Translations under genes and position numbers: made by a program
Part shown: in pieces, positions 5,050-13,339 of the stretch
How the letters are laid out: the number at the start of each line of letters is the position of its first letter
How positions within the stretch are numbered: the first letter of the stretch is position 1
Assembly (NCBI RefSeq): GCF_000503895.1
Contig: NC_022997.1
Span: forward strand, 1,384,501 to 1,448,500
Reading direction: 5' to 3'
Source: Hyphomicrobium nitrativorans NL23
GTDB taxonomy: Bacteria > Pseudomonadota > Alphaproteobacteria > Rhizobiales > Hyphomicrobiaceae
Length of the DNA: 64,000 nucleotides
The notes under the pieces: model-generated
What the model was told of the DNA's origin: nothing
The model's database searches: none
Seen by the model: only the letters and a program-made list of their open reading frames with translations

Positions 5050-6828
5050 TCAGCGGCGGATGGAGCGCAGCTCTTCGGCGATACGGGCCGACTGCGAGGG
5101 CCAGCTTGCCGCGAGCCAGTCGTCGGTGCCGAACAGCCAGTACCAGAAGCGGTTGCGGCGGTAGTAGCGCTCGACGGTGACGCGGTGCATCCGCTCGACC
5201 GTGCCGGAGAGGGCGTCCAGCATCTCGACGGGCTTGGCGGTTGCCTTCTCCAGACTGTCGATGCGCGTGGCGAGAATGCCGAACGCGTTGGCCGCGTCCT
5301 GCGCCTGGGCGTCGAGCGCGGTGGCGATGGTGTGCTGGTTGCCGTTGACCTTGGCGAGACCGATGTGCAGCTCGCTCAGCTCGTTCGAGAACGTTTCCGT
5401 CAGCTTGCCGACGCCGTCCTGTGTGTTGAGGAATTCGAGCGCGAGCGTGTCGCGCACGGCGGAGAGGCTGTCGCTTACGGAGCCGAGGTCTTCGGCGGTT
5501 TGGCCATCGGCGGTCTCGGAGCGAGTTGCGTGTTCGCCGAGCGCGCTTTCGAGCGCGGAAATGCGTTCGCGCGCCTGGGCGAGATCCTCGGCGGTGGCGG
5601 AGCGGCTGGCCTCGATCCGCTCGATCAGTGCGTCGAGATCGGTGTCGGGCTGGCGTGCGAGGGCGTCGAGCAGGGCTTCGTCCGCGGCTTTGGCCCGCTC
5701 GCGCTCGTCCTCGACGGCAATTTCGAGCGCCTTGAGGCGGTGATCCGTTTCGCGCGAGAGGACGGCATCCTCGATGACGGCGATGCGTTGCGCCAGCGGG
5801 GCGAGGTCGGGGCCCGGGCGGGAGGCGAGCGCCTCGATGGCCGTGCGGGTCTGTACGATCTCCGCCGTCAGCGTGCGCTCGATGGTTGCGAGGCGCTCCT
5901 GGATGCGCTCCTGATATTCACCGTTCGGCGGTGTGCGGGCGGAGAGGAAGGCCTGCTCCAAACTTTGCAACCGATCACCGATCACCGATTGGATCTTGTC
6001 CTGAGTGAGGCCGCCGGGGCGGGCTGTCGTGTCTTCGCGCTGGGCCATAAGCTCTCGCTGCAGGTCGTGCAGCACTCCCGATATTGTTTTTCTTTCGTCT
6101 GCCAATTCGTTCGTCAAATTGCGGATCGACTGTTCAAGGGCGTCGATCCGGGAACTTTGCGTGTGCGTCTCCGCCGTGCCGCTGCTCGCCAGTTCGTGGG
6201 TGCGCTGGGGCTGCGGCGAGGCTTGAGCGGGCTGCGGTGACGGCGCGGGGCGAAAGCGCTCGCGGACGATGCCGTCGTCGAACCCGGCATGGACGGGCTG
6301 GGCCTGTTGGAGCCGCCCGAGCAGGCGCTTGAGGCTCGTGAATTCTGCGTCGCTGTCGAACAGGGCGCGGATAATGTCGGTGACGTTGACTGGGGCCTGG
6401 CGGCGATAGGCGATGCCCGACGCCAGCCTCAAGACTTCCTCCAGCGCGTCGGTCCGGCTTGGTAATGTCTTGCCGCTGCCGGGGTCTGCCGGAATTTCTG
6501 TCGCGATGACGGTTGCGGCTTCACGGCGTAGCGCAACGGCGCGGATGCCGCGCGCCTCGAAGGCATCCGCAGCTTCGGGCACGCGGGTGAGCGCGTAGAT
6601 CAGGTGTTCCAAGCGCACTTCGAGTGCGCGATGGGCGGAGGCGACTTCAAAGGCGTGATTGCAGCAATCGAGTGCCGTCTGGTCGACCCAGATGGGGCCG
6701 CTGCGTGCGTTGGCACCCGACCGCGACCGCGATGGGGGTGCGAACATCTCTCCGCCATGCGGGAGGGCTAGATCCGACGGCGCCGCTTGAGGCGTTCTCA
6801 GATCCAGATCGTCGCCACGATAACTCAT
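5050..6828 (-). CDS. ClpA-N-like domain protein with long coiled coil
   Basis: 592-residue protein. After a disordered start, about residues 45-175 resemble the double Clp-N repeat: a first repeat with H-R-A-L-E-V-R-L-E-H-L-I-Y-A-L and a second with R-T-D-A-L-E-E-V-L. A long Q/E/A/R-rich segment (about 225-545) has strong coiled-coil character. The C-terminus is aromatic and basic (YYRRNRFWYWLFG), which may associate with the membrane. No AAA+ ATPase module follows, so this is not a Clp unfoldase. Clp-N domains elsewhere bind adaptors or substrates; a scaffold or adaptor role is inference. It faces away from the 7107 gene. Confidence 0.75.
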   Translation of the reverse strand: MSYRGDDLDLRTPQAAPSDLALPHGGEMFAPPSRSRSGANARSGPIWVDQTALDCCNHAFEVASAHRALEVRLEHLIYALTRVPEAADAFEARGIRAVALRREAATVIATEIPADPGSGKTLPSRTDALEEVLRLASGIAYRRQAPVNVTDIIRALFDSDAEFTSLKRLLGRLQQAQPVHAGFDDGIVRERFRPAPSPQPAQASPQPQRTHELASSGTAETHTQSSRIDALEQSIRNLTNELADERKTISGVLHDLQRELMAQREDTTARPGGLTQDKIQSVIGDRLQSLEQAFLSARTPPNGEYQERIQERLATIERTLTAEIVQTRTAIEALASRPGPDLAPLAQRIAVIEDAVLSRETDHRLKALEIAVEDERERAKAADEALLDALARQPDTDLDALIERIEASRSATAEDLAQARERISALESALGEHATRSETADGQTAEDLGSVSDSLSAVRDTLALEFLNTQDGVGKLTETFSNELSELHIGLAKVNGNQHTIATALDAQAQDAANAFGILATRIDSLEKATAKPVEMLDALSGTVERMHRVTVERYYRRNRFWYWLFGTDDWLAASWPSQSARIAEELRSIRR

Positions 6829-7106
6829 CCCACTCTACTCCCCGTTACGCACTGCCGGCGGGATACCCCCATATTCAGTTTGCCGGAACTCAGGCAGCAT
6901 GTCCGGCCGGATCGTCGTCCGCCGGGTGCCTGTGCGTATCCCCGCGAAGAGGATAGCCTGTTCCTGGCCGTGCGGCGAGGGGGAGCGGACTTGCCCCGAA
7001 AACGTGGTAAATGCAGCGAAATTGCCGGGTTGGCGCGGACGGTTCATACGGTCATCCGGCGGTCAGAATCGGTGCTAAACTCGGGACTTAGACGAGAGCG
7101 AAGCCG

Positions 7107-7568
7107 ATGCAGGTCCTCACAGTGCCATCCGTCATTTCCTCCGAGCCCTGGGGGCGTCCCGCTCGCGGGCGGTTTCGGCGTGTCGTGCTTGGGATTGCTG
7201 CGGTTCTTGTCGGCGCCTGGGCCTTCGCGCTGGCCGGTGCCGATCCTGTTCGGGCGCAAACCGCCGATACGAAGCCTTATGACGAGCAGCTTTTGCGCCT
7301 CGCGGAGATTCTGGGCGCGGTGCACTATCTGCGCGAGTTGTGCAGCGCCGACGACGGTCAGCTCTGGCGCGACAGGATGAAGGAGCTTCTCGATACCGAG
7401 GGCGCGACCGCGCTGCGGAAGGCACGTCTTACGCGTAGCTTCAATCAAGGCTATCGCAGCTATCGGCGCACGTATGCAACGTGCACGCCAACCGCGCAAT
7501 CTTCCATCGAGCGCTTCTTGGTTGAAGGAATCGAGATCGGCGATGGGCTTGTGAAGAACGCGCGCTAA
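7107..7568 (+). CDS. TIGR02301-like exported protein
   Basis: 153-residue protein with a basic start and hydrophobic segment (about residues 27-47), then an A-x-A-type cleavage region near VRAQ. The mature part carries the pattern I associate with alphaproteobacterial family TIGR02301: YDEQLLRLAEILGAVHYLR, LC-x3-DG-QLWRDRM, then RS-F-N-x-GYRSY-x2-TY-x2-C. The two cysteines (LCS and ATC) could form a disulfide in the periplasm. Function unknown. Confidence 0.8.
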   Translation: MQVLTVPSVISSEPWGRPARGRFRRVVLGIAAVLVGAWAFALAGADPVRAQTADTKPYDEQLLRLAEILGAVHYLRELCSADDGQLWRDRMKELLDTEGATALRKARLTRSFNQGYRSYRRTYATCTPTAQSSIERFLVEGIEIGDGLVKNAR

Positions 7569-7800
7569 CTCCGGCGCGAGATCAAATTGCGCAGCGTTTC
7601 ATGCTGCTCACATGAAAACGATCCGTTAGCGCATTGATATCTTACTAACAAAAATCAATGTCACTCTAGCGAGTTTACTGTGAATTGTCTAAGCATCTGG
7701 TCGGGCGCTCTCCGCGTGCTAGGTGTACGCTCGGGAATGGAGAGAGTCGCGCGGCGAGGGGGCCCGTCTCTCGCGTTAGGCTTCTGGGGGAAGGACCGAC

Positions 7801-8049
7801 ATGACAGCGCATATCGATCTCAAATCGTCTGAGGATCTGAGTTTTCGCGCCCTGAGCCTCATTCTGGCGGCGTGGGACGAAGGGACCGAGAGCGGCGTTG
7901 CGCCCGAGCAGATGGCCTACGCCGCGCTGTTCACCGCGCTGACGGATCTCGTTTCGCTTTACGGCGAAGACGCCGTGAAGAAGCTCGCGTGCGGGCTCGA
8001 ACAGCGGATCGACCTGGGCGAATTCACGCTCGACCGCAATCTGCAGTAG
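7801..8049 (+). CDS. Small conserved hypothetical protein
   Basis: 82-residue acidic, soluble, mostly helical protein with no signal peptide or membrane segment. The ATG is preceded by GGGGGAAGG about 5-12 bases upstream, a good ribosome binding site. I do not recognise a named domain. It stands alone between the TIGR02301-like gene and the convergent LysE-type exporter. Confidence 0.65.
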   Translation: MTAHIDLKSSEDLSFRALSLILAAWDEGTESGVAPEQMAYAALFTALTDLVSLYGEDAVKKLACGLEQRIDLGEFTLDRNLQ

Positions 8050-8107
8050 GTCCCTGAAGGCGCACGCGCTGGGAACGCCGGTCGCGCGGGGTGTTCGGCT
8101 TGAGGGA

Positions 8108-8770
8108 TCAGGCCTGAAGCCACGCCACCGCCAGCTCGCCAATGAGCAGTCCGCCGATCACGATCAGAAGGGCGCCTGCGACGAGGTTCGTGTAGGCGAG
8201 GTGGACCGGGCTGAAACGGTGGCGCAGACGGCCGATCAGGTGCGAGAGGCCGAGCCACCACATCAGGCTTCCACCCATGATCGCCGCTACCATGGTGAGC
8301 GCGTCGACAACGCTGTCGACATCCACGAACGTCGATACGCCTCCGAAGATCGCAAACAGACCCAGCACCGCGGCGGGATTTGTGATGGTGAGAAAAAACG
8401 TTTTCGGAATATCCCAGGCGTAGTCGCGCAGTGTGGCGGAGCCGTCGATTTCCGCCTCCACCGTCGCAATGATGGGAGGCGCCAGATACAGTTTTATCCC
8501 GACTAGAACGAGTGCAAGGCCGCCCACGATCTGGATCGTCTGGCGGTGGTATTCGATGGCGCCCGAGATCGCGCCGACGCCGAGGCTTGCGAACAGTGCG
8601 ATCAGCCCATCGCCCAACGTCGCGCCGATGCCGGCGGCCACTCCGCCCCAGAAGCCGCGCTCGATGGCGCGTTGGATGCAGAGGACGTTGACGGGGCCTA
8701 CGGGAGCCGCGACAAGCACCCCGATCACGATGCCAACGGGGATGATGAAGAGATTGGGCACTAGCTGCAT
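8108..8770 (-). CDS. LysE family exporter
   Basis: 220-residue inner-membrane protein with about six hydrophobic segments. The first carries the LysE/RhtB signature VLVAAPVGPVNVLCIQRAIERG; the run GVAAGIGATLGDG follows, and the loop LTITNPAAVLG is typical of the second half of the family. Such proteins export amino acids or similar small molecules; the substrate cannot be read from sequence. I chose the ATG at 8770 (MQLVPNLF) because it places the first membrane helix at the N-terminus; an in-frame start at 8821 would add 17 residues. It converges on the small gene at 7801. Confidence 0.85.
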   Translation of the reverse strand: MQLVPNLFIIPVGIVIGVLVAAPVGPVNVLCIQRAIERGFWGGVAAGIGATLGDGLIALFASLGVGAISGAIEYHRQTIQIVGGLALVLVGIKLYLAPPIIATVEAEIDGSATLRDYAWDIPKTFFLTITNPAAVLGLFAIFGGVSTFVDVDSVVDALTMVAAIMGGSLMWWLGLSHLIGRLRHRFSPVHLAYTNLVAGALLIVIGGLLIGELAVAWLQA

Positions 8771-9030
8771 GTGCGCCACCGCGGCGACAGCGCTTGATCG
8801 AAGTCCGGCATTGCACCTCAAATGGGAGACCCGGTTCTCCGGGTCATGGAAGGGGACGCGAGCGTCTTATGACATATGATACGCAGCGGTCTGATTTCGA
8901 GGGGACGCGATACGCTCATTTCTCGCGGCCTGCGACACGCGCTTGCGTTGTGCCGACGCACGTTGCGGCAGGATGTTCCTCGCCTCTGGTGGCATTCGCG
9001 CCGACAGGGCTCGGCCAAGCGATCCGTCGG

Positions 9031-9645
9031 ATGCGCCGACCGTGCTGGATCGGCACTCTGGCCTCGGCCCTATTGGTAGCCGTGGTCCTGGGTGATGTCC
9101 ATGGCGATGGTCTTTCGTCTCGCGCGCTTGCGGCCGAACCTGCTGTCCAGGATCGCGCTGCGATCAAAGAACGGGCCTTTCACGGCGAGCTTCCGGAAAG
9201 CGTGATCGAAATGCGGGAGGACATTCTCGCGGCGATCCATGCGGGTGCGCTCGCGGATCTGGACAAAGCGGCCCGTTGGAGCGAGGCGAGGAGCGGCAGG
9301 CCGGTGGACTTCGGCGCTGGACCGGATGCGGATCACGTGGGCCACTGGAAACGTCTCTCGCGGGATGGTGCGGGCCTCGAAGTGCTCGCGATTGCCGCGA
9401 ACCTTCTCGCGCTGCCGCCGGCGCGGCTTGCAATCGGCAAAGATCCTGAAAATACGTTCGTCTATGTCTGGCCCTATCTCGCGGAAGTGCCGGGCAACAC
9501 ACTGACATCGACGGAAACGGTCGATCTCTTGCGTCTTGTTCCGGCGGAGACGGCGGAGGCGATCCGTAAGGGCGGAAAGTGGCCCTGGTGGCGGATTGCG
9601 ATCGGGGCCGATGGAACTTGGCTGGCGTTCCGGCGCTACGAGTAG
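9031..9645 (+). CDS. Exported hypothetical protein
   Basis: 204 residues from the ATG at 9031, which begins a signal peptide (MRRPCWIGTLASALLVAVVLG) with a likely cleavage near ALAAEP. An in-frame ATG at 8869 has a nearby AAGGGG and would add 54 residues; the choice rests on the signal peptide being N-terminal. The mature part contains YVWPYLAE and ends with a W-rich segment (KWPWWRIAIGADGTWLAF) reminiscent of small periplasmic domains of unknown function. It lies upstream of the L,D-transpeptidase, but a link is not shown. Confidence 0.65.
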   Translation: MRRPCWIGTLASALLVAVVLGDVHGDGLSSRALAAEPAVQDRAAIKERAFHGELPESVIEMREDILAAIHAGALADLDKAARWSEARSGRPVDFGAGPDADHVGHWKRLSRDGAGLEVLAIAANLLALPPARLAIGKDPENTFVYVWPYLAEVPGNTLTSTETVDLLRLVPAETAEAIRKGGKWPWWRIAIGADGTWLAFRRYE

Positions 9646-9819
9646 GTGAGGCTTGCGCTCCGAACGAGAGGGTCAATTCGGAACGAGATATTTCCCATAA
9701 AATTCAACCGTGTTCTGCTGCGGCGTGTGGACGGGTGGAAGGTTGAGCAAAGTGGGCCTATGTTCAGGGCGATCTCCTCGCCGGGGTGATGCGTTTCGGT
9801 TAGCGGTTAGAGGTTTGTG

Positions 9820-10659
9820 ATGATGTCGGGTGTTCGTGTTTCTGCGTTGGTTCTCGGTGCGGGATTTTTGATGGTCGGGAGCGCCGCTCCCGTTTCGGCG
9901 CAGGGGCTCAGCCAATACGGCATGTGGGGCAGCGGTCCGCCCACCAGCCGCTCCCCCTCGTTTCTTGGCGCGGCGCCAGCAGCGCCTCAGGCGGCGCGCG
10001 GTGCGGAGCTGGCACAGGGTGGCGGCCGTCCGTCCATAAGCCCGAAGTCGCCCAAACGCGTTTCCTTCGACAACAGATTCGAGCCGGGCTCGGTAGTGAT
10101 CGATACTGCGGGCCGCAAGCTCTACTACACACTTTCGCAGAACAGCGCCTATGTGTACCCGGTTGCCGTGGGGCGGCAGGGCTTCACGTGGACGGGCATG
10201 GAGCGTGTCTCCCGCGTCCAGAGCTGGCCGGATTGGCATCCGCCGGCAGAGATGCGCCGCCGCGATCCGCGTCTGCCGGTCAAGATGACGGGCGGCGTCC
10301 GCAATCCGCTCGGCGCGAAGGCGATCTATCTCGGCAATACGCTCTATCGCATCCACGGCACCAACGAGACGCGTTCCATCGGCACGGCGTCCTCGTCCGG
10401 CTGCTTCCGGATGCATAATGGGCACGTGGTGCATCTGGCCGGTCTCGTCGATGCAGGAGCGCCGGTTTACGTGATGCGCAGCCTGCCGAAGTCCGGCCCT
10501 GCGACGCCGCCGGGTGGGTCCAAGCCCAAGCAGCCCGCCGTGCAGGAGGTGTCTGTCGAGAGCCCTGCTCCGACAGCCGGGGATGCGGACACGGGCGCCG
10601 GGGAGAACGGTGCCGGAGCGGCAGAGCCGGCCGACGCTGCGGACGATCAGGCGATCTAA
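9820..10659 (+). CDS. L,D-transpeptidase (YkuD domain)
   Basis: 279-residue exported enzyme of the YkuD family, which makes 3-3 cross-links in peptidoglycan or attaches proteins to it. A signal peptide covers about residues 1-28. The catalytic signature is visible: HGTNE near residue 180 and the SSGCFRMHN motif with the nucleophilic cysteine near 195; YYTLSQNSAYVYPVAVG marks the start of the domain. The last 75 or so residues are low-complexity P/A/G/E. A GTG at 9817 and ATGs at 9820 and 9823 are adjacent; AGAGG at 9809-9813 fits the ATGs better. Confidence 0.92.
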   Translation: MMSGVRVSALVLGAGFLMVGSAAPVSAQGLSQYGMWGSGPPTSRSPSFLGAAPAAPQAARGAELAQGGGRPSISPKSPKRVSFDNRFEPGSVVIDTAGRKLYYTLSQNSAYVYPVAVGRQGFTWTGMERVSRVQSWPDWHPPAEMRRRDPRLPVKMTGGVRNPLGAKAIYLGNTLYRIHGTNETRSIGTASSSGCFRMHNGHVVHLAGLVDAGAPVYVMRSLPKSGPATPPGGSKPKQPAVQEVSVESPAPTAGDADTGAGENGAGAAEPADAADDQAI

Positions 10660-10914
10660 CGAGGCCTGACGCGTTTCTTAATTCTGGACGGGGCGGTGAT
10701 CCGCCTCGTCCATTTCGCGTATCGAGGTCGGCCGCTGTGGCGGAGCGGTGTCGCTTCGTCCGGATCTTCCGGCCGGGCCATGGACGGCCGCCGCAATCCG
10801 GTGGTACGCGGCAGCCAAGTGCAATAAGCTGCGATTCTGACCACCTCGCGGGCTCATGTCCGCCGGGATAAGTCGCGCAGACAGCGCTTATCGGAACACA
10901 CGAGGTCAGGACAC

Positions 10915-12399
10915 ATGAGCAATAACGCGATCTCCCTTGAGCTTCTGGCCTTCAACCTGAAGCTGCTCGGCCGCCAGCGCCGCAAGAACATCTTGATCAG
11001 TGCGGGCCGCCGCGAAGACAAGAAGCGGATGCTGGCCGCGGTTCGGCGCATCCTCACGCTCGATGTCGAACTCTACGCAACGCCGGGTACCTACCGCTTC
11101 TTCAAGGAGAACGGCATCGACAGTACGGAGATCCACAAGATCACCGATGGCCGTTCGCCAAACATTCTGTCCTTTCTCAAGGCGAACCGCTTCGACCTCG
11201 TCATCAACGTGCTGACGGGCGACGAGGATTACGACGAGGGGTCGGATGCGCGCCTTATCCGCAAATTGTCGATCGAGAACGGCATTCCGCTGATCACGGA
11301 CGCTGATGTCGGCATCGCGACGCTCGAACAGATTATCATCGACGCGGAGCGGGGCACCTATCGCTACCGCCTGGCGGACGACAGCGAGCCGTGGAACCTG
11401 CGCTTGCGCTTCCTGGCCGCGGCGGAGAAGCATGGCGGGCTTGCGAACCATCACGCCCATTTCGACAAGGCCTATTTGATTACGCATGAGAACCTGCGCC
11501 TCAGCCAGGTCGATATGCAGAAGAAGTGGGAACTCTACCGCTATCTGAAAGAGAACTACACGCACGACGACCTCGTCGAGCGGATCAGCCGCGGCCTGGA
11601 GATGATGATCCAGCAGGGGGTCACGTACTGCCGCACCATGGTGGATGCGGACAGCACCGTGGGGCTGTTGCCGATCAAGGCGGCGATGGACGTCAAGAAG
11701 CGCTATGCGGACCGCATTCACTTCGAGGTCGGTGTGCAGCCGCTTCAGGGCGTGCTCGATCCGGCGTCGTTTGCGCAGTATGCGGAAGCGTGCGAGCTTG
11801 CCGACTATTGCGGCGGCCTGCCGTCGCGCGACCGGCCGACGCCGGAGAAGCATCTCGACGTGATCCTTTCGCTCGCCAAGAAGCTCGGCAAGCCTGTGGA
11901 TGTGCACATCGACCAAGAGAACAATCCGCTCGAAAACGAGACGGAGCTTTTGGCCGAGAAGACCATCGAGCACGGGATGCAGGGGCGCGTGTTCGGCGTG
12001 CATGCGATCTCGCTCTCCGCGAAAGAGGATCGCGAGCAGGACCGCATCATCGAGAAGGTGCGCGAAGCCGATCTTGGCATCATCATCTGTCCGTCGGCGG
12101 CGCTCAGCATGAAGCAGCTTCCGATGTCGGGTCCGCTGCACAACTCCATCGCTCCGTACGTCAAGCTGCGGGATGCGGGCGTGCGTTGCTATCTCGGCGT
12201 CGACAACGTGCACGATCTTTTCATGCCGATGGTGGACGGCGACATCTGGACCGAGTGCCGGATGCTGATGGAGGCGACGCGTTTCTACGACATCGACGCG
12301 GTGGCGGAGTGGGCCTGCGCCAAGCCGATCACCGCCATGGCGGGGTTAAGCGCGATGGACGAAGCCGCGCCCGCGAAGAAGCGCGCCGCCGGCGTCTGA
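10915..12399 (+). CDS. MGS-like domain fused to cytosine-deaminase-like amidohydrolase
   Basis: 494-residue soluble protein with two domains. Residues about 20-150 match the methylglyoxal-synthase-like fold found at the C-terminus of CarB and in PurH: LYATPGTYRFFKENGI, then GRSPNILSFLK, FDLVINV and SIENGIPLITDADVGIAT. The rest is an amidohydrolase barrel with the metal-site pattern of cytosine deaminase relatives: HAHFDK (H180, H182), H331 in DVHIDQ, H363 in GVHAIS and D430 in GVDNVHD. Substrate unknown. MGS-like domains bind phosphorylated ligands in other enzymes, so allosteric control or substrate presentation is possible (inference). It lies 52 bp upstream of ygfZ, where many Rhizobiales carry a dihydroorotase-type gene (from memory). 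Confidence 0.85.
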   Translation: MSNNAISLELLAFNLKLLGRQRRKNILISAGRREDKKRMLAAVRRILTLDVELYATPGTYRFFKENGIDSTEIHKITDGRSPNILSFLKANRFDLVINVLTGDEDYDEGSDARLIRKLSIENGIPLITDADVGIATLEQIIIDAERGTYRYRLADDSEPWNLRLRFLAAAEKHGGLANHHAHFDKAYLITHENLRLSQVDMQKKWELYRYLKENYTHDDLVERISRGLEMMIQQGVTYCRTMVDADSTVGLLPIKAAMDVKKRYADRIHFEVGVQPLQGVLDPASFAQYAEACELADYCGGLPSRDRPTPEKHLDVILSLAKKLGKPVDVHIDQENNPLENETELLAEKTIEHGMQGRVFGVHAISLSAKEDREQDRIIEKVREADLGIIICPSAALSMKQLPMSGPLHNSIAPYVKLRDAGVRCYLGVDNVHDLFMPMVDGDIWTECRMLMEATRFYDIDAVAEWACAKPITAMAGLSAMDEAAPAKKRAAGV

Positions 12400-12451
12400 T
12401 GACAGGGGCCAGCACCGGACGAGGCAGAGAAGTGCCTGAGGGGCGGTCGTC

Positions 12452-13339
12452 ATGACGTATGCGACACTTCTGGAAGACCGAGGTTTCGTTTCTGTGACGG
12501 GGCCGGACGCCGAGAAGCTGCTCGGCGGCTTGATCACGAACGAGATGTCGGTGCTCGACGCGGCGCCTGCGCTCTATGCGGCGTTGCTTGCGCCGCAAGG
12601 CAAGATCCTGTTCGACTTTCTCGTGGTGAAGACGGCAGACGGTTTTCTGCTCGATACGCTGCGGGCCCGTGCGGGGGAACTCGCCAAGCGGCTTGCGATC
12701 TACAAGCTGCGCGCCGCCGTCGAGATCCGCGACGCATCGGCGGATTTCGTTGCGGGCGCCGTTTGGGGTGGTGCTCCCCTGCTGGAGGACGGAGCGCCGT
12801 CTGGTGTGCAGGTTTATGCGGATCCGCGTTTTTCTGCGCTGGGCCATCGCGTGATCGCGCGCGCGGGGACGACGGCGGGCGATCTTGCTGCCGCTGTGGG
12901 AGGCGTGGAAATCTCTTCCGATGCGTATCATGCGCACCGCATCGGGCTCGGCGTGCCGGAAGGCGGGCGCGATTTTGCGTTCGGCGATACGTTTCCGCAC
13001 GAGGCCTTGCTCGATCAGCTCAACGGCGTTTCCTTCACCAAGGGTTGTTTCGTTGGGCAGGAAGTCGTGTCACGGATGCAGCATCGCACGACGGTGAGGA
13101 AGCGCGTTGTGACGGTGGTGGCGGATGCTGCGTTGCCGAGGGAGCCTGTGCCCGTCGCTATCGGTACGGTTGAAATCGGACGACTGGGCTCCGTCGCAGG
13201 GTCGCGCGGGCTGGCGCTGGTGCGGATCGATCGCGTCGCGGAAGCGATCCGCGACGGCATTCCGTTGACTGCCGGCGGCACGGATGTGCGCGTCGAAGTA
13301 CCGTCGTTCGCGACGTTCCGCATCGAGGTTGCCGCATGA
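12452..13339 (+). CDS. ygfZ: YgfZ/GcvT-like folate-binding protein
   Basis: 295-residue protein of the YgfZ family, a folate-binding accessory factor needed for repair or maturation of some iron-sulfur enzymes. The diagnostic motif K-G-C-F-V-G-Q-E is present near residues 197-204, with its cysteine intact; the N-terminal LLGGLITNEMSVL region and the C-terminal barrel also fit. The length is typical of alphaproteobacterial members. The stop overlaps the start of tag by 4 bases, implying translational coupling. Confidence 0.9.
   Translation: MTYATLLEDRGFVSVTGPDAEKLLGGLITNEMSVLDAAPALYAALLAPQGKILFDFLVVKTADGFLLDTLRARAGELAKRLAIYKLRAAVEIRDASADFVAGAVWGGAPLLEDGAPSGVQVYADPRFSALGHRVIARAGTTAGDLAAAVGGVEISSDAYHAHRIGLGVPEGGRDFAFGDTFPHEALLDQLNGVSFTKGCFVGQEVVSRMQHRTTVRKRVVTVVADAALPREPVPVAIGTVEIGRLGSVAGSRGLALVRIDRVAEAIRDGIPLTAGGTDVRVEVPSFATFRIEVAA

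Follow-up and report, generated by a model that had tools for sequence, protein, structure and literature searches.

A fused MGS-amidohydrolase of Hyphomicrobium nitrativorans as a probable dihydroorotate-forming enzyme acting on argininosuccinate

The window analysed here, a 64,000-nucleotide stretch of the Hyphomicrobium nitrativorans NL23 genome, contains an open reading frame at positions 10915-12399 that starts with ATG and encodes 494 amino acids plus the stop codon. It lies on the forward strand, as do all window features given below. Pfam models assigned residues 39-128 (11029-11298) to the MGS domain PF02142 (E 6.6e-16; 58.7 bits against a cut-off of 24.1) and residues 175-468 (11437-12318) to Amidohydro_1 (E 5.2e-11). 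This confirmed the original prediction that the two domains are joined in one protein, and a structure search concurred. Since the fusion is seen across phyla, it is no chance or assembly join. Residues 162-469 matched the NCBIfam family NF005365/PRK06886 with 452.3 bits (curated cut-off 340). The family is named 'hypothetical protein', in agreement with the expectation that no reaction had been assigned to it. We propose that the gene encodes a dihydroorotate-forming argininosuccinate hydrolase.

By sequence, the barrel came closest to the solved structures of cytosine deaminase and AtzC, and the N-terminus to that of carbamoyl-phosphate synthetase. For the AlphaFold2 model of the fusion protein (mean pLDDT 86.8, pTM 0.78), 37 proteins of the window and the loci were aligned as input. 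In a Foldseek search with this predicted model, the barrel retrieved 5-methylcytosine deaminase, CodA and AtzC with E values of 1e-16 to 1e-19, and the N-terminus retrieved carbamoyl-phosphate synthetase 1a9x at rank 44 (E 3.7e-6). Neither of the dihydroorotase models, TIGR00857 and TIGR00856, was among the 11 NCBIfam families that matched the fusion protein at E up to 1. AtzC hydrolytically strips an N-alkyl amine off a triazine ring. The proximity of the barrel to hydrolases of ring exocyclic amines (CodA, AtzC) counts for the reaction proposed below.

The amidohydrolase metal site, which had been read as intact from the single sequence, held up across an alignment of 54 family members. H180 and H182 of the HxH motif (11452-11460), H331 (within 11905-11916, together with Q334) and H363 (12001-12003) were present in every member, and D430 (12202-12204) in 53, the exception being a truncated piece. 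Q334 occupies the position of the catalytic Glu in most deaminases and was Gln in 54/54 members; this exchange of the deaminase Glu for an invariant Gln was counted against our main reading. K204, W205, Q234, Q334, N336, H409 and N410 are invariant in the family alignment and are candidates for gripping the aspartyl and ornithyl parts of the proposed substrate. The cytosine deaminase fold and the metal site would also suit an enzyme that deaminates nucleobases or cyclic amidines in salvage or catabolism, with the genomes being pyrimidine auxotrophs or incomplete assemblies. We consider this highly improbable, as cytosine-deaminase models scored only 64-90 bits against the fusion protein (cut-offs 403-483), outside the range of CodA members, and as K204, W205, Q275, Q334, H409 and N410 are family-specific and stand in place of deaminase residues.

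The N-terminus had been described as an MGS fold of the CarB/PurH kind. The MGS assignment stood and the likeness to PurH did not: CarB models of NCBIfam gave 40-45 bits versus 15-16 bits for PurH models, so that by sequence the domain is specifically CarB-like and not equally PurH-like. Residues S29, K36, T56, T59, K75 and N98 (10999-11208) align with the UMP/IMP site of CarB, and in the alignment K36, T56, T59, K75 and N98 correspond to CarB K954, T974, T977, K993 and N1015. We take K954, T974 and N1015 of CarB to be UMP-site residues. For T977, K993 and S948, one study reports importance for UMP inhibition or binding (PMC6245113). The equivalents of CarB K954, T974, T977, K993 and N1015 were unchanged in 41/41 MGS domains, taken from fused (31), ArgG (7), AsnRS-like (2) and ATCase (1) proteins, while the S948 position was Ser or Thr in 40 of these domains and Ala in one. 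A CarB-type MGS domain with its UMP-site residues kept supports the earlier suggestion that the protein is probably controlled by a phosphorylated ligand. The ATCase among these proteins (361.6 bits; L180:11880-13130) carries a C-terminal MGS domain and comes from a candidate-phyla genome, G095, that had no match to the amidohydrolase family. MGS domains were found on several kinds of committed pyrimidine enzymes.

The fusion gene is followed by ygfZ (12452-13339; gene name from the earlier sequence note) and preceded by a gene at 9817-10659, whose product we presume to be L,D-transpeptidase-like. In eight relatives, ygfZ forms one border of a slot that holds a dihydroorotase over cut-off (710 bits with the dihydroorotase equivalog model in L186). 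An HD gene is found there in seven of them, tag in six, and a homologue of 9817-10659 on the opposite side, beyond the dihydroorotase, in five. Seven further dihydroorotase-bearing relatives lie outside this count, and a ninth locus, L192 (G025), whose hydantoinase-like match below the dihydroorotase cut-off had been wrongly chosen, was set aside. In the window, the MGS-amidohydrolase occupies this slot in the orientation opposite to the relatives' dihydroorotase, and in Bauldia (L008, L010) the enzyme also adjoins ygfZ. The slot relatives carry another dihydroorotase-family gene beside ATCase (e.g., G014:C1), making the slot copy one of two. The ygfZ neighbour had been taken as a pointer to folate. 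With a dihydroorotase at this position in all eight relatives examined, a folate or pterin link through ygfZ was rejected; of the pterin-, purine- or pyrimidine-derived substrates originally considered, pyrimidine metabolism fits the evidence and the other two do not. Occupation of the slot is also what would be seen if the enzyme were a non-orthologous dihydroorotase and OTCase or another protein carbamoylated aspartate in addition, an explanation that we regard as unlikely on the evidence from candidate phyla given below.

Gene content was assessed with models for ATCase (TIGR00670), dihydroorotase type I (TIGR00857) and type II (TIGR00856), ArgG (PF00764) and the DHO_dh family (PF01180, which takes in dihydropyrimidine dehydrogenase too). 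The window genome (G000), a single contig that is 100% complete, had no ATCase over cut-off (best match 155 bits versus 236.95) and no dihydroorotase of type I or type II over the cut-offs. Its sole carbamoyltransferase is an OTCase (TIGR00658, 373.5 bits). ArgG is present, and the DHO dehydrogenase is a quinone-type PyrD (TIGR01036, 345.6 bits). Among the 40 nearest relatives, ATCase passed its cut-off in 0/8 genomes with the fusion versus 29/32 without it (Fisher p 2e-6, or 3e-8 when four genomes less than 90% complete are left out). Because relatives share ancestry, these p values exaggerate how many events took place, and a single event may account for the losses of ATCase and dihydroorotase in Hyphomicrobium. 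The three fusion-free relatives without ATCase over cut-off (G004, G008, G031) are each at most 88% complete, and G031 has ATCase in two pieces. Dihydroorotase, tested in 26 of the 40 relatives, was found in none of the eight with the fusion and in 17 of the 18 without.

The pattern extended to the wider set of fused-type genomes, 29 of which (out of 35) underwent the full gene test; in G054, G056, G057, G060, G061 and G076 the test covered ArgG alone. ATCase and type II dihydroorotase over cut-off were each found in 0/29, and type I dihydroorotase in one (G047), which has a full dihydroorotase and a 204-aa ATCase fragment and was counted against the main reading. ArgG was present in 27/29 (over cut-off in neither G052 nor G063), and the DHO_dh family in 29/29, with weak matches of 113-126 bits in G048, G049 and G063. 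Control genomes had ATCase in 14/14 cases. Many of the positive genomes are metagenome assemblies whose completeness is not established, and single absences therefore carry little meaning; the absence argument is carried by the window genome, which is complete, by its genus and by the recurrence of the pattern. The universal retention of the DHO_dh family and the single-contig state of the window genome argue further against a salvage or catabolic deaminase in an auxotroph or an incomplete assembly, as do the PyrF and PyrE-type genes in candidate-phyla operons. Simple mineral media with methanol, moreover, suffice for growth of Hyphomicrobium.

Scanning one genome per species recovered 48 related loci. 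The fused form was present in Hyphomicrobium, Rhodomicrobium, Bauldia, Planctomycetes and Terriglobia. It was also found in Desulfobacterales, in relatives of Beggiatoa and Thioploca, in Myxococcales and in one Campylobacterales genome. Given that the family occurs in many non-methylotroph groups, the methylotroph setting lost its value as a clue to the substrate. In the groups sampled, the family is rare: NF005365 passed its cut-off in 2/385 genomes of the window's class, one being the window genome itself, and in 3/369 genomes of a gammaproteobacterial class, two being already-known positives. In a plasmid collection, none of the 572 matching records covered 80% of the query and all were below 60% identity. 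Arginine or pyrimidine neighbours are not shared among fused loci outside Hyphomicrobium and Bauldia. An exception is a Terriglobia locus (L012:4646-11477) in which the fusion is flanked by a dihydroorotase gene on one side and an ATCase fragment of 204 aa on the other.

A stand-alone form of the enzyme, without MGS, occurs in candidate-phyla bacteria. In the phylum of a Peregrinibacteria genome, 9/239 genomes were over the NF005365 cut-off and 15/239 matched at E 0.001. There is also a gammaproteobacterial stand-alone member (L139:8001-8993 in G565; 614 bits with NF005365), in a genome with two OTCases and no ATCase or dihydroorotase over cut-offs; both are likewise absent over cut-offs from the stand-alone genome G064. 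Divergent amidohydrolases with weak family matches (L137, L138, L078, L057) form a long branch inside the family in the tree; as they had been counted as outgroup, the outgroup is not clean. Two of them, the candidate-phyla matches L137 and L138 (G186, G126), were omitted from the 22 candidate-phyla loci considered next, which comprise ten from the one-genome-per-species scan and twelve others.

All 22 loci could be sorted by the partner of the amidohydrolase: ArgH adjoining (14), ArgG-MGS within two genes (7), or carAB-pyrB-pyrC adjoining (1). The ArgH neighbours of the first type (L034-L040, L042, L044, L128, L130, L131, L134 and L136) fall into one argininosuccinate lyase blastp cluster, with 320.6 bits for that of L040 (argH cut-off 279.5). 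The gap between ArgH and the amidohydrolase was an overlap or at most 31 bases in 13 of the 14 loci, and 57 bases in the other. In 7/7 loci of the second type, argininosuccinate synthase and a C-terminal MGS domain share one open reading frame (458.5 bits with argG in L125, cut-off 268.2), and PF00764 was over cut-off in all seven genomes. A dihydroorotate-dehydrogenase-family gene was found in six of these loci and was absent from L127, a 5.7 kb contig. L135 additionally has, downstream, PyrF over cut-off and a PyrE-type gene just under cut-off, and L126 and L129 have genes resembling these types. The third type is L043 from Kerfeldbacteria (5929-12915), where the amidohydrolase is followed by carA, carB, pyrB and a dihydroorotase gene, named by eye except that ATCase and dihydroorotase came from profile models. 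In the tree, the ArgH-neighboured L131 groups with the ArgG-neighboured L132 and L133 with a support of 1.0. The amidohydrolase is thus constant while its partner changes, and the common denominator of the partners is argininosuccinate.

Several further features were observed at the ArgG-MGS loci. A DDAH/arginine-deiminase-like gene lies near the amidohydrolase in L127 (4805-5650) and L129 (8996-9799) and could provide citrulline from arginine. An AsnRS/asparagine-synthetase-like ligase with a C-terminal MGS domain stands beside the amidohydrolase and ArgG-MGS in L132 (11382-12881) and L135 (8889-10307). No anticodon domain was matched in either ligase, and each is a candidate argininosuccinate cyclase that would activate the beta-carboxylate. 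The amidohydrolase match of L135 (7950-8750 and downstream, G275) is in two pieces with one internal TGA under table 11, possibly reflecting another genetic code or an error.

The genomes of the seven ArgG-MGS loci (G090, G096, G123, G134, G225, G243 and G275) contained ArgG in all cases, with neither ATCase nor dihydroorotase over cut-off in any, and no MGS match within a CarB-length frame. In five of them (G090, G096, G225, G243 and G275) there was no carbamoyltransferase match of any kind at E 0.001, and carbamoyl-aspartate would therefore not be made by a carbamoyltransferase. This is hard to reconcile with a non-orthologous dihydroorotase fed by a promiscuous carbamoylating enzyme, which would also leave ArgG-MGS or ArgH as neighbours without explanation. 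The position of the L043 enzyme within a pyrimidine operon fits such a dihydroorotase, but that operon already has a dihydroorotase gene, and its genome (G074) has ATCase as well, as summed pieces.

Gene content was not uniform across the family. Against the main reading, ATCase was over cut-off in 12/14 ArgH-type genomes as well as in G074, and dihydroorotase in 11/14 ArgH-type genomes. The proposed pathway does not account for the ATCase kept in these ArgH types. There the enzyme may serve an additional route that starts with arginine and fumarate, or perform a related but different task. In G313, ArgH adjoins the enzyme and there is a strong DHO_dh match, with no match for ArgG, ATCase, full dihydroorotase or MGS. 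G070 has no ATCase, dihydroorotase or DHO_dh, and its assembly may be incomplete.

Together, the slot, the gene content and the neighbourhoods lead us to conclude that the enzyme probably makes L-dihydroorotate from argininosuccinate, replacing PyrB and PyrC and receiving UMP feedback through its MGS domain; the substrate, the chemistry, the order of ring closure and hydrolysis and the direction of the UMP effect are all inferred. In the proposed pathway, OTCase would form citrulline from carbamoyl phosphate and ornithine, and ArgG would convert citrulline, aspartate and ATP to argininosuccinate. The free guanidino nitrogen would then attack the aspartyl beta-carboxylate to close a six-membered ring, giving a dihydroorotate that bears an ornithyl-amino group instead of the C2 oxygen. 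By cutting the C2-N bond, the amidohydrolase would release dihydroorotate, with ornithine as the leaving amine, and dihydroorotate would pass to PyrD and the usual later steps to UMP. Ornithine would thereby act as a recycled carbamoyl carrier, and carbamoyl-aspartate would be bypassed. Ring closure might be spontaneous, occur in the amidohydrolase active site, or, in two lineages, be carried out by the AsnRS-like ligase. Argininosuccinate is known to exist in a six-membered anhydride form. Its loss of water to give 'anhydrides' is described in two publications (PMC6918381, PMC4987396), and the ring named in the former is five-membered, unlike the six-membered ring required here. In lineages with an ArgH neighbour, ArgH in reverse (arginine plus fumarate) could supply argininosuccinate.

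A variant of this scheme has the enzyme hydrolyse linear argininosuccinate to N-carbamoyl-aspartate and ornithine, with another protein closing the ring. The ArgH and ArgG-MGS neighbours fit it equally well, and the amidohydrolases of G045, G048, G049 and G064 reach 160-208 bits, under cut-off, with the type I dihydroorotase model. We nonetheless give it little credence, since no dihydroorotase of either type was over cut-off in 28 of the 29 fusion genomes or in the seven ArgG-MGS genomes, and the slot occupied is that of a dihydroorotase.

Returning to argininosuccinate as the direct source of dihydroorotate, UMP bound to the CarB-type MGS domain would throttle the first committed step in organisms where argininosuccinate is common to arginine synthesis (ArgH). 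We propose that MGS rides on the amidohydrolase where arginine synthesis would have to use ArgG as well. A somewhat less secure but still rather likely generalisation is that MGS, as a portable domain sensing UMP, became joined in each lineage to the committed-step enzyme, alongside the existence of a second de novo pyrimidine pathway. The proposed bearers would be the amidohydrolase (where arginine synthesis also draws on ArgG), ArgG itself or the AsnRS-like ligase in candidate-phyla bacteria, and ATCase in G095.

If a route past both PyrB and PyrC exists, the apparent gap left by these enzymes would be filled in Hyphomicrobium, Rhodomicrobium, Beggiatoa-type bacteria, some Planctomycetes and candidate-phyla bacteria, and metabolic models that would score such organisms as pyrimidine auxotrophs would be corrected. 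The 'hypothetical protein' family NF005365 would receive a name, and the MGS domain would be seen as a transferable UMP feedback switch. A Hyphomicrobium argG mutant should then need both arginine and pyrimidine, and an argH mutant arginine only.

To our knowledge, de novo pyrimidine synthesis via carbamoyl-aspartate is generally regarded as nearly universal, and our search of the open-access literature found nothing on the fusion, the family name, an argininosuccinate pathway or the missing PyrB. The nearest published finding is another non-textbook link between arginine and pyrimidines, the arginine-synthetase route of Thermococcus kodakarensis, in which, according to a 2026 report, carbamoyl phosphate is obtained from arginine and the canonical steps are then retained; the word 'amidohydrolase' is absent from that text (PMC13260591). 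CodA and 5-methylcytosine deaminase (4r7w) are the closest folds by Foldseek and have the HxH/H/H/D site in common with the family, but they differ in their catalytic Glu and lie far from it by model score. AtzC (N-isopropylammelide isopropylaminohydrolase) resembles the enzyme in its barrel, its metal site and, by analogy, the proposed hydrolysis of an N-alkyl amine. It differs in having about 24% identity, other invariant pocket residues and another proposed substrate, and the fusion has MGS where AtzC has its own N-terminal part. With the canonical route (CarAB, PyrB and PyrC; CAD in animals), the proposed pathway has in common dihydroorotate as product, aspartate as ring donor and UMP sensing by MGS. 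It would proceed through citrulline and argininosuccinate with recycling of ornithine, whereas the canonical route uses carbamoyl-aspartate, and it places MGS on the amidohydrolase; if confirmed, it is a separate de novo route to pyrimidines.
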